A DNA stretch of 57,527 nt. It comes from Lachnospiraceae bacterium (GTDB lineage Bacteria > Bacillota > Clostridia > Lachnospirales > Lachnospiraceae). The stretch is taken from NCBI GenBank assembly GCA_017619615.1, contig JAFZRY010000018.1, forward strand, positions 1 to 57,527, in the 5' to 3' direction. The notes beneath the pieces are model-generated. The model did not search any database, was not told the origin of the DNA, and was given only the letters and a program-made list of their open reading frames with translations. Shown piece after piece: positions 10,102 through 27,870 of the stretch. Each line of letters opens with the position of its first letter. Position 1 is the first letter of the stretch. Both the position numbers and the translations under genes were made by a program.

Positions 10102-10137
10102 AATCAAAACTCTTTGCACTGCACAGCCATCACCAGT

Positions 10138-10258
10138 ACAAACTGAACAGGCAGCGCGGCGCCCGGCGGCCCGCGTGTGGCCGGGTCGTGAAAATGACAG
10201 CAGAAGCGGACAGCACATCTGCGGGACAGGCAAAACTCCCGGGATGTGCTTTTGTTTT
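10138..10258 (+). promoter_or_regulatory. NiCo (czcD) riboswitch with transcription terminator
   Basis: The leader shows the conserved stretches of the NiCo aptamer in order: AACTGAACAGGCA (10141-10153), GGCCGGGTCGTGAAAATGAC (about 10179-10198), then CAGCAGAAGCGGACAGC, then ATCTGCGGGACAGG (10217-10230). These correspond to the four-way junction of the published structure. The expression platform follows: AGCACATC (10212-10219) can pair with GATGTGCT (10243-10250), followed by TTTGTTTTC. The 5' arm of that terminator is also part of the last aptamer helix, so metal binding should block termination (an ON switch). The next gene is a cation exporter, the usual target. The remainder of 9929-10306 holds only the promoter and spacer. 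Confidence 0.88.
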
Positions 10259-22566: not shown

Positions 22567-23829
22567 ATGACCCTGATCGAATTCTTTGAAAGCAGCATCG
22601 TCGAAAACATCTGCACCAGCATCGCCCACGCGCCGGACCGCGTCATTCTGATCGGAGAGCAGAACAAACTGCTGCAGAAGCACGCGAAGCGGTACCGGGA
22701 ATTCTTCCTGGAGCACGGGTATGACATCGAGTTCCTGTGGCGGTCCGTTGACAAGAACAAAGTGGAGACCATCATCAAAGCCCTCGAGGCGATCTTCGAG
22801 GAATACCCGGACTCGATCATCGACGTGACCGGCGGGGCGGATCTGTACCTTTTCTCGGCCGGTGTTTTCTGCGAACGGTACCGGGACAGAAACGTGCAGG
22901 TGCATTATATCAATATCCGCAGCGGCGCCACGTACGACTGCGATCTGGACGGTGAGAAGATCATCGAAAACAACCCGCTGCAGTTTTCCGTGGATGACAA
23001 TATCCGGCTGTACGGCGGAAAAATCGTGTACGACGACGAAAGACCCGAAGGCACCCATCTCTGGGATCTGAATGAGGACTTCAAGCGGGATATCCGCGCG
23101 ATGTGGGAGATCTGCCGCGAAGACCGCGGCCTGTGGAACTGGCAGATGGAAGTGCTCGGGGCCGCCGAACTGTTCCGGGATCCATCGAAGGGTCCGCTGG
23201 AGACCGTAGCCCCGCGGAGCAACGTATCCACCCACATGGAGCACAGCGGTTACAACGGGTACCTGTTCCGCTTCAGCCTGATCAAAAAACTGATCGGGGC
23301 CGGCCTGATCCTCCCGTCCTTCGAATTCGACAACTCCCGCCCGATCCGCATCGAATACAAAAACGAGCAGGTCAAACGATGCCTGACCAAAAGCGGACAG
23401 ATCCTGGAAATGATCGTCTATCTCGCCGCGTGCGAAGCCCGGGAAAAGAACGGGCTCCCGACTTACAACGACGTGATGACCGGCGTGTTCATCGACTGGG
23501 ACGGCGACATCCATACGGAAGATTCGTATCACGACGCGGAAAACGAAGTGGACGTGATCCTGATGCGCGGTATGGTCCCGATCTTCGTTTCCTGTAAAAA
23601 TGGCGGCGTCAGCGTTCAGGAACTGTACAAGCTGCAGAGCGTCGCGAACAAATTCGGCGGCAAATACGCAAAAAAGGTCCTCATCGCTCCCGCGCTGAAA
23701 GGACATGAAAACGAAACCGCCCTCCGCGAGCGTTGCCGCGACATGCAGATCCAGATCATCGACGACATTGAAAACTGGGACGAGACCCGGCTGTTCAACG
23801 CCATCAAAACGCTCTGGTCCTCGAACTGA
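22567..23829 (+). CDS. Card1/Can2-like CARF-domain nuclease (DUF1887)
   Basis: A 420-residue protein with the Card1/Can2 layout. Residues 1-150 form a CARF-like Rossmann domain: VILIGEQNK (27-34) and SIIDVTGGADLYLFSAGVF (83-101), where DVTGG corresponds to the ligand-contacting loop. Residues about 170-265 form a winged-helix-like middle. Residues about 275-400 form a PD-(D/E)xK nuclease: E281, E327-V-D329 and K344 in VSCKNG, followed by the helix QELYKLQSVANKFGG. Characterised relatives are switched on by cyclic tetra-adenylate from type III CRISPR complexes and cut single- or double-stranded DNA/RNA. No cas10, csm/cmr or array is in this window. GGAAGGAAGG precedes the ATG at 22567; an ATG at 22531 lacks a site. 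An MmcQ-EVE gene starts 19 bp downstream. Confidence 0.82.
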   Translation: MTLIEFFESSIVENICTSIAHAPDRVILIGEQNKLLQKHAKRYREFFLEHGYDIEFLWRSVDKNKVETIIKALEAIFEEYPDSIIDVTGGADLYLFSAGVFCERYRDRNVQVHYINIRSGATYDCDLDGEKIIENNPLQFSVDDNIRLYGGKIVYDDERPEGTHLWDLNEDFKRDIRAMWEICREDRGLWNWQMEVLGAAELFRDPSKGPLETVAPRSNVSTHMEHSGYNGYLFRFSLIKKLIGAGLILPSFEFDNSRPIRIEYKNEQVKRCLTKSGQILEMIVYLAACEAREKNGLPTYNDVMTGVFIDWDGDIHTEDSYHDAENEVDVILMRGMVPIFVSCKNGGVSVQELYKLQSVANKFGGKYAKKVLIAPALKGHENETALRERCRDMQIQIIDDIENWDETRLFNAIKTLWSSN

Positions 23830-23848
23830 TCTCTCCCGGAGGTGCACC

Positions 23849-24589
23849 ATGTGGCAGCAGGTCAAAGACTACATCCAAACCAAATATGACACCGCCCCGG
23901 AATTCCCCTGGCGCGCCTACCCGGACTATGCCGTCTTCCGCCACCGCGACAACCGCAAATGGTTCGCCCTGGTCATGGACGTCCCCGCCTCCAAACTCGG
24001 CCTCCCCGGCGACACGCCCCTCCCCGCCGTCAACCTGAAGATCGACGACGCCCTCTACCGCAGCATCCTCCTCCGCGAAAACGGCATCCTCCCGGCGTAT
24101 CACATGAACAAGCTGCACTGGATCACGGTGCTGCTGGACGGTACGGTCGCGGAAGAGCACGTGTTCGAGTTGATCGACGCAAGTTTTGAGGCGACGGCGT
24201 CCGCCGCGAAGAAGGAGAAGGCGCGGCCGGCGAAGGAATGGCTCGTGCCCGCGAATCCGAAATACTATGACATCGTGCGCGCGTTTGATGAGGCGGACAC
24301 GGTCAACTGGAAGCAGGGCGCCGGGATCCGCAAGGGCGATACCGTTTATATGTACGTGGGTGCGCCCGTGTCCGCGATTTTGTACCGGTGCCGGGTGACG
24401 GAGACCGAGATCCCGTATCATTTCGAGAGCGAGTACCTGACGATCACTGCGCTGATGACACTGAGGTTGGAGAGAAGGTACGGGAAGGAGGAGTTCACGT
24501 TTAAAAGGCTGAATGAGGAGTTCGGGATTAGAGCGGTGAGGGGGCCGAGAGGAGTGACGAATAAGTTGGGGAGTGAATTGAAAACATAA
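23849..24589 (+). CDS. MmcQ/YjbR domain fused to EVE domain
   Basis: A 246-residue protein. Residues 1-115 match the MmcQ/YjbR family, a CyaY-like fold thought to bind DNA: FPWRAYPDYAVFRHRDNRKWF, then LHWITVLLDGTV. Residues about 130-246 match an EVE/PUA-like domain: NPKYYDIVRAFDEADTVNW, then GIRKGDTVYMYVGAPVSAI. EVE domains bind modified bases and are frequent in type IV restriction and other defence proteins. It starts 19 bp after the CARF-nuclease with a CCGGAGG site, so the two are co-transcribed. The GC content of the gene drops towards its 3' end, close to the AT-rich boundary at about 24,590. Confidence 0.8.
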   Translation: MWQQVKDYIQTKYDTAPEFPWRAYPDYAVFRHRDNRKWFALVMDVPASKLGLPGDTPLPAVNLKIDDALYRSILLRENGILPAYHMNKLHWITVLLDGTVAEEHVFELIDASFEATASAAKKEKARPAKEWLVPANPKYYDIVRAFDEADTVNWKQGAGIRKGDTVYMYVGAPVSAILYRCRVTETEIPYHFESEYLTITALMTLRLERRYGKEEFTFKRLNEEFGIRAVRGPRGVTNKLGSELKT

Positions 24590-24650
24590 TCATTACTGTA
24601 TTAAAACATATGATTATAGACTATAATATGCAGAAGAGAGGAGATGGAAA

Positions 24651-24779
24651 ATGGCTAAAAGACATAAGATTACAATCCACCTAAAAAAACATGGTGTATG
24701 GTGGTGGCTTTTTATTGGTTGGTGGTGGCGCCCAATAATGTGGCTTATTATAGGTTTATTGGGTTATAGAGTAAAATAA
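24651..24779 (+). CDS. 42-residue Trp-rich membrane peptide
   Basis: A small frame with a good site (GAGGAGATGGAAA, then ATG) and a nearby TATAAT at 24622-24627. The peptide has a basic N-terminus (MAKRHKITIHLKKHG), then one hydrophobic segment with two WWW clusters (VWWWLFIGWWWRPIM, then WLIIGLLGYR). Seven of 42 residues are Trp. This fits a single-pass membrane peptide, such as a small toxin, holin-like peptide or membrane regulator. It sits directly after the CARF-nuclease/EVE pair, in AT-rich DNA, and is followed by a hairpin. No homologue is known to me. Confidence 0.5.
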   Translation: MAKRHKITIHLKKHGVWWWLFIGWWWRPIMWLIIGLLGYRVK

Positions 24780-26952: not shown

Positions 26953-27870
26953 ATGTATTACCTGATCCGGGAGACCCTGGCCCCCTGCGGGGCTGACGAA
27001 ATCGCGACGGCGGATGTGCCGTACGTGGCGGTGCTGACGCCGGAGGAATGGCGGCGGAACCGCGAGCGGTTCGCGATGGGGATCGATATGGACGCCGTGC
27101 TGCCGGCGCTGTCACAGACGCGGGCAATCGTGAACTACGACTCGCTGACGGGGAACATTGCGATCCCCGCGGTGGGAGATTCGGAGCATCTGTCGGGCTC
27201 GTTCGCGTTCGCGCTGGACGAGCGGGGCGTCGTATTCATTGACGGGAGCGGGCTGGCGGAGTGCATCGTGCAGGCCGTGGCGGAGAGCCGGCGCTGGCGG
27301 ATGCCCGGGCTGGAGCGCTTTCTGTACGATTTTCTGGAGCAGATCATCGCGCCGGACCTGGCCCGGCTGGAGCAGTTGGAGCAGACGCTGGAAAGCCTGG
27401 AAGCCGAGATCCTGACTGGTGACGGCGAGCCCGTCATGGCCCGCCTCAACGACATCCGCGGCGACCTCCTGGACCTGAACCTGCACTACGGCCAGCTCCT
27501 GGACCTGGGCCTGGAGCTGGAGGAGAACGAAAACGGCTTTTTCGAAGAGGAAAACCTCCGCTACTTCCGCCTCTTCGCCGCCCGCGCCGACCGCCTGCGC
27601 GACATGGTCAACAACATGCGCGACTACACCGTCCAGCTGCGCGACCTGATCCAGACCCGCATCGACGTCAAGCAGAACCGCATCATCACGCTCCTGACCG
27701 TCATCACCACGATCTTCACGCCGCTGACGCTGCTCACGGGCTGGTACGGTATGAACTTCCGGTACATGCCGGAACTGGAATCGCGCTGGGGGTACCCGGC
27801 GGTGATCGCGGTGAGTCTGGCGATCGCGGGCGGATGCCTGCTGTATTTCAAGAGAAAAAAGTGGATGTAG
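26953..27870 (+). CDS. corA: CorA-like magnesium/divalent cation transporter
   Basis: A 305-residue CorA family protein. It has a soluble N-terminal alpha/beta domain, a long coiled-coil-like helix (about 125-235, with LARLEQLEQTLESLEAEI), and two C-terminal membrane helices. The signature GMN lies at 266-268 (GWYGMNF) between the helices, followed by an acidic loop. CorA pentamers import Mg2+ and sometimes Co2+/Ni2+. It is preceded by an unknown membrane protein 48 bp upstream and followed 26 bp downstream by a YD-repeat protein, so it may be the centre of a three-gene operon. Confidence 0.88.
   Translation: MYYLIRETLAPCGADEIATADVPYVAVLTPEEWRRNRERFAMGIDMDAVLPALSQTRAIVNYDSLTGNIAIPAVGDSEHLSGSFAFALDERGVVFIDGSGLAECIVQAVAESRRWRMPGLERFLYDFLEQIIAPDLARLEQLEQTLESLEAEILTGDGEPVMARLNDIRGDLLDLNLHYGQLLDLGLELEENENGFFEEENLRYFRLFAARADRLRDMVNNMRDYTVQLRDLIQTRIDVKQNRIITLLTVITTIFTPLTLLTGWYGMNFRYMPELESRWGYPAVIAVSLAIAGGCLLYFKRKKWM

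Follow-up and report, generated by a model that had tools for sequence, protein, structure and literature searches.

Can2, Card1 and Cdn1 are effectors of type III CRISPR systems. Four residues of Can2, Ser19, Thr42, Lys99 and Tyr118, are described as the cA4 contacts common to Can1 and Can2 (PMC7969007). In Cdn1, T9, Q11, T37, K104 and Y124 are reported as highly conserved across the Can2-family clades compared in that study (PMC12825302), and we take T9, T37, K104 and Y124 as the equivalents of Can2 S19, T42, K99 and Y118. The metal site of Cdn1 is described as comprising E274, E308, D310 and K325, with E323 as the glutamate of the ExK motif (PMC12825302). Every CARF family is stated to include genes unlinked to CRISPR-Cas (PMC4012209), and orphan DUF1887 proteins are already in print. 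One of them is VC1899, which has Asp9, Asp34, Arg96 and Val115 at the four contact positions and for which cA4 gave no regulation in vitro (PMC7969007). Such orphan CARF proteins pose the question of what, if anything, turns them on.

The DNA analysed here, called the window, is a 57,527-nucleotide contig (JAFZRY010000018.1) of a Lachnospiraceae bacterium, belonging to a 1.98-Mb, 34-contig assembly that is 90.8% complete. The features of interest are the following:

22567..23829, + strand: gene of a CARF-PD-(D/E)xK nuclease of the DUF1887/PF09002 kind, 420 aa, from profile, PADLOC and structure matches
22567..22971, + strand: its CARF domain, approximately residues 1-135, from alignment to Can2
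23392..23766, + strand: its PD-(D/E)xK domain, approximately residues 276-400, with E281, E327, D329, S342 and K344
23849..24589, + strand: MmcQ/YjbR-EVE fusion, 246 aa, a YjbR domain followed by an EVE domain
24651..24779, + strand: Trp-rich hydrophobic ORF, 42 aa, AT-rich

The sequence-only reading of this region had described a Card1/Can2-like gene located 19 bp before an MmcQ/YjbR-EVE fusion and followed by a Trp-rich 42-aa ORF, and all three elements were confirmed. The CARF protein is firmly assigned to the DUF1887-type (Card1/Can2/VC1899-like) nuclease family. The PADLOC model CARF4--CARF_PDDEXK matches its residues 2-398 (5.7e-27), and a profile search with the protein retrieved Can2, VC1899 and Card1. 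The CARF and PD-(D/E)xK folds are both present in one chain, in the same order as in Can2, Card1 and Cdn1. VC1899 is the best structural match (PDB 1XMX; 16% identity). The score to the Pfam family Card1_endonuc is 23.5 bits, below Pfam's own cut-off of 26.4. The protein looks like a signal-gated enzyme predicted to cut DNA or RNA, of a kind that type III CRISPR systems usually activate.

In the profile alignment, Can2 S19, T42, K99 and Y118 correspond to E8, E31, D92 and Y114 of the window protein. Only the Tyr of the four shared cA4 contacts is kept, and the other three are acidic (Ser to Glu, Thr to Glu and Lys to Asp). The protein thus differs from Can2, Card1 and Cdn1 by the replacement of the Ser, Thr and Lys contacts and by a Ser in place of the ExK glutamate. 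It also differs from VC1899, in which Lys99 is matched by an Arg and the nuclease domain has ECK; the window protein has Asp and SCK at these places. We found neither Lys nor Arg at the Lys99 position in any of the 28 aligned rows of its branch (E 11, D 7, S 5, G 3, N 1, P 1). The Ser19 position is occupied by D 11, S 9, E 4, G 2, N 1 and H 1, and the Thr42 position by D 9, Y 7, H 4, S 2, T 1 and others. Loss of the Lys is uniform in the branch, whereas the Ser19 and Thr42 positions are mixed; the Tyr118 position is mixed as well (R 8, Y 6, F 4 and others).

Since three of the four contacts are acidic and none of the cyclases searched for was found in the assembly (see below), the trigger is probably not cA4 made by Cas10. 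That the ligand of the window protein is not cA4 is likely but unproved; another ligand or state would gate the enzyme. This idea has a precedent, as the 2014 CARF paper noted two CARF families in which a positive residue after strand 4 is mostly absent and proposed that families of this sort bind distinct ligands (PMC4012209). By analogy with Can2, Card1 and Cdn1, the window protein is probably a homodimer, in which a ligand bound in the CARF pocket would rearrange the metal-dependent PD-(D/E)xK nuclease. The reading that we favour, by a modest degree, is that the gene is an orphan and encodes a metal-dependent nuclease that is probably intact and is controlled by something else than cA4 from Cas10.

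In the equivalence that we draw with Cdn1, residues E281, E327, D329 and K344 of the window protein stand at the positions of E274, E308, D310 and K325, and S342 stands at that of E323. In the branch, E281, E327 and K344 are each conserved in 27 of the 28 rows and D329 in all 28. Serine is found at the ExK position in 27 of the 28 rows, and activity of the window protein might therefore be reduced. Ser at this position also occurs in the Lys-bearing, Cas10-linked members. As these members carry SCK too, we dropped this motif as a mark of the orphan branch.

These features could also be those of a degenerate remnant, i.e. a former ancillary nuclease of a type III system that no longer has its CRISPR partner or its ligand site and is now drifting, a fate also proposed for VC1899. 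The replaced ExK glutamate is consistent with decay, as are the acidic residues at two pocket positions, found also in VC1899, the best structural match. The gene is patchily present, in a single one of the 16 genomes of the genus, and one relative, in genome G041, is split. Against this, catalytic and GG-motif residues are kept in 26-28 of the 28 rows across deep divergence, and full-length copies are present in 26 of 299 family genomes. Comparison of the window gene with its 71%-identical relative (locus L031) gave a pN of 0.178, well below the pS of 0.821; as synonymous sites are saturated, these values say only that amino-acid change has been much slower than silent change. We thus regard a remnant as unlikely, and the window protein is, on balance, more probably a living nuclease.

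The distribution of the relatives was determined in the family and the genus. A single-sequence search found CARF relatives in 29 of the 299 family genomes and a profile search in 33, the 26 full-length proteins including the window's own. The only copy among the 16 genus genomes is that of the window. From this distribution, the gene is sporadic here. A scan of viral contigs, reaching close relatives only, found none, phage records gave no match by DNA or by CARF protein, and plasmid records gave no match to the CARF protein. The relative in G041 (L078:9855-10761, + strand) is split into ORFs of 225 and 93 aa and looks broken.

We analysed the surroundings of three near relatives, at loci L031, L032 and L033, which are 71, 45 and 43% identical to the window protein, respectively. 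At L031, a protein with a RyR domain (4e-35) is encoded before the CARF relative, and the ORFs after it read as hsdM and hsdS. At L032 (8001-17272), the relative is followed on the same strand by genes for a TIR-TPR protein and for an IetA-scoring protein. At L033 (8001-13337), it is followed on the same strand by a gene for an AAA/peptidase M41 (Pfam) protein that also scores to IetA. The IetA-scoring proteins of these two loci share one BLAST cluster, and the arrangement is possibly a small defence cluster. Judging by their gene contents, the near relatives thus lie in defence-like surroundings. Together with the family membership, these surroundings suggest a role in defence for the window protein. 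More broadly, four family loci have a common neighbourhood whose ORFs resemble, by reading, dnaB, rplI and a gdpP-like gene. Across 31 loci, no neighbour cluster is shared by more than eight, and the one that reaches this number varies in distance and strand.

Can2, Card1 and Cdn1 belong to type III systems; in contrast, no Cas10 was found in the window's assembly. The cyclase search covered three kinds of enzymes, and neither the Cas10 palm (PF22335), nor SMODS (PF18144), the sole CD-NTase family covered, nor mCpol (PF18182) had a match in this 90.8%-complete assembly. In a set of 29 genomes, mCpol exceeded its cut-off in none, with one match below the cut-off in G089. A local type III system was thus rejected for this assembly, for which the orphan status of the CARF gene is firm; a Cas10 gene could lie in the missing part. 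The sequence-only reading had proposed a CARF nuclease without type III CRISPR, with an activating nucleotide coming from elsewhere, and had called for a genome-wide search for cas10 or a cyclase. The search bears it out as far as the assembly goes, in that we found no type III locus and the activator is probably not made by a local Cas10.

The assembly does have one Cas1 match. It belongs to a CRISPR locus on another contig (L075:1-8000; G000:C9) with an array of approximately 30 repeats, beside which are encoded, in order, a 1364-aa protein, Cas1 and ORFs of 106 and 221 aa. The locus looks like type II-A from its gene order, the sizes of the products and the start of the large protein, and the names Cas9, Cas2 and Csn2 are putative, on the same grounds.

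We next looked at Cas10 linkage in the family. Cas10 was counted at an E value of 1e-8 or better for PF22335, a line chosen after the matches had been seen, because most of the weaker matches fall on model positions 50-132 and resemble GGDEF proteins, and because weak matches also turn up in the E. coli control. At this threshold, 36 of the 299 family genomes have Cas10. Among the 26 genomes with a full-length CARF relative, only one (G267) has it, against 3.1 expected (P of one or fewer, 0.15). With the curated cut-off, the proportions are six of 26 (G049, G050, G089, G160, G180 and G267) versus 64 of 299, and at E 1e-3 they are nine of 26 versus 108 of 299, again without enrichment. Thus, Cas10 is not enriched with the CARF branch in the family.

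In a sample of 398 genomes of the phylum, 25 have a CARF match, and Cas10 was checked in 19 of these and in 52 unmatched genomes. Strong Cas10 matches are present in all 11 genomes with Lys-bearing CARF members. Among the six genomes with Lys-less members, only G613 has one, and G654 (with an Arg), G431, G581, G510 and G485 do not; G581 and G510 pass the curated cut-off with weak matches. Six of the 52 genomes without a CARF match have strong Cas10. For the family and the phylum combined, strong Cas10 occurs in two of 32 Lys-less genomes. A Fisher test of Lys against Cas10 (11/0 vs 2/30) gives p 1.4e-8 with kinship ignored. We do not rely on this value because of that kinship, as the tree provides one change and one independent pair. 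In this tree of 44 rows, eight of them with the Lys, the Lys state changes once (support 81, by SH-aLRT alone, and with long branches present), so the correlation with Cas10 amounts to one independent contrast. The window protein groups with those of L031-L033 inside the Lys-less part.

The composition of these sets calls for some precisions. Four of the 11 Lys genomes (G519, G484, G376 and G368) entered through shorter ORFs (194-309 aa) in which the nuclease part is of another kind or not visible; in G376, a full-length CARF member is present as well. Outside the 32 and 11 genomes are G041 (split copy), G234, G289 and G261 (long proteins, partial match), and G209, G092 and G272 (partial or other kinds of CARF), of which G092 and G272 have the Lys. 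G617 and G660, searched for Cas10 but with an unreadable pocket, are also outside, as are G542, G628 and G658, which lie outside the Cas10 search too; G628 has the Lys. L031-L033 are in the alignment, and their genomes are outside the Cas10 search. The genome G558 encodes a 739-aa ORF (L102) with two CARF-bearing halves in tandem, the Lys being kept in the aligned half, and has Cas10 on the same contig.

Two Lys-less members, in G613 and G267, have type III genes nearby, so the loss of the Lys from the pocket does not necessarily imply the absence of a Cas10 link. In G613 (L120:1081-11387, - strand), the CARF nuclease gene is directly upstream of a co-directional type III-like cluster. This cluster comprises RAMP-like ORFs (names by reading) and the genes for a 558-aa protein with hydrophobic stretches towards its C terminus and for a Cas10-like protein with GGED (Cas10 match 1.8e-30); no direct-repeat family was found in this stretch. 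In G267 (L076:3090-10898, - strand), the CARF member is approximately 4.5 kb from Cas10-like, RAMP and Cas6 genes (Pfam). Its Cas10-like protein is short and bears SGDD, and a 517-aa protein of the cluster looks like a CARF-HEPN protein by motif reading, with no Pfam hit.

These two cases leave room for a cyclic oligoadenylate effector acting in trans, for which cA4 or another such molecule would come from a type III system on a plasmid, on a phage or in the unassembled part of the genome and would be bound differently. The Tyr kept at position 114 and the incompleteness of the host assembly are compatible with this scenario. Nevertheless, it would have to accommodate acidic residues at phosphate- and base-contacting positions and the presence of Cas10 in just one of the 26 family genomes. 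The CARF protein also has no plasmid or phage match, which counts only against a mobile effector and not against a mobile cyclase. We judge an effector in trans to be improbable, slightly more so than a remnant, and keep to an orphan nuclease responding to something other than Cas10-made cA4. Extended to relatives, this reading would be that, in a branch of DUF1887 CARF nucleases widespread in this bacterial family, a pocket without the Lys and often acidic has taken the place of the cA4 pocket, and that these proteins act as stand-alone sensor-nucleases for a ligand that is not a cyclic oligoadenylate, mostly unlinked to Cas10; we propose this only tentatively and consider it less likely than not.

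The Lys-less branch seems to be the new part, as a literature search did not find an orphan DUF1887 branch of this kind; the 2020 CARF classification, outside the reach of that search, may describe it. A branch that keeps most catalytic residues, lacks the Lys contact and is not enriched with Cas10 is well suited to deciding between two possibilities, namely that CARF domains respond to molecules besides cyclic oligoadenylates or that effectors can survive as remnants over long periods.

Finally, the initial proposal was that the CARF nuclease, an EVE sensor and a membrane peptide form one defence operon. The three genes are on one strand, separated by 19 and 61 bp, with ribosome-binding-like sites. 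Co-transcription of the first two is plausible given the 19-bp gap and the GGAGGTG that precedes the ATG of the MmcQ-EVE gene. In addition, MmcQ/YjbR-EVE genes are reported to adjoin variable regions in which mobile and defence genes abound, particularly in Streptococcus (PMC7641849). However, tblastn searches (E 1e-3) of 38 loci of CARF relatives, some truncated where their contig ends, found the MmcQ-EVE protein, the Trp-rich peptide and the product of a neighbouring 145-aa ORF in none; the same result had first been obtained with 32 shorter loci besides the window's. This result gives no support to the proposed unit of three genes, and a conserved operon was rejected.

The MmcQ-EVE gene has a history of its own and is not a conserved partner of the CARF gene. 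MmcQ/YjbR-type matches occur in 222 of the 299 family genomes, most of the listed ranges being the YjbR part alone, and matches spanning both domains in at least 22. Three of the latter genomes (G000, G040 and G067) also have a full-length CARF relative, which in G040 and G067 is on a different contig. In G154 and G267, a partial-length match and a CARF relative are likewise on different contigs. In the congener G238, a match 67% identical starts 4 bp after a CorA gene whose product is 85% identical to the CorA encoded at 26953 of the window, and the G238 genome yielded no CARF relative. The linkage on which the initial proposal depended is therefore not conserved. The G238 match corresponds to the first 245 residues of a 622-aa ORF (L077:8479-10347, - strand). 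The window protein has the same two-domain fusion as the published MmcQ/YjbR-EVE proteins; these are described as frequently carrying an N-terminal DUF1831 (PMC7641849), whereas the only Pfam hit of the 246-aa protein is YjbR. Its position beside the CARF gene would fit a chance insertion at a variable region of the kind reported.

There is no conserved link between the Trp-rich peptide and the CARF gene either. Among 149 further family genomes (150 searched with its own), a single further match to the peptide turned up, within a different ORF that bears cysteines and lies on another contig than the CARF gene of the same genome; phage and plasmid records gave none. Taken with the 38 loci and the CorA-adjacent gene of the CARF-less congener, this makes a single defence operon very improbable. 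The ORF with this further match, at L091:1375-1698 (+ strand), contains a Trp-rich stretch like the window peptide and has paired cysteines close to each of its ends.

A promoter scan of the window gave 11 sites where 2.8 would be expected, most of them in the AT-rich DNA that follows the genes; predicted terminators are at chance level. The window has no tRNA gene, and its only Rfam match at the gathering score is a NiCo riboswitch at 10133-10231 (+ strand; 62.8 bits).
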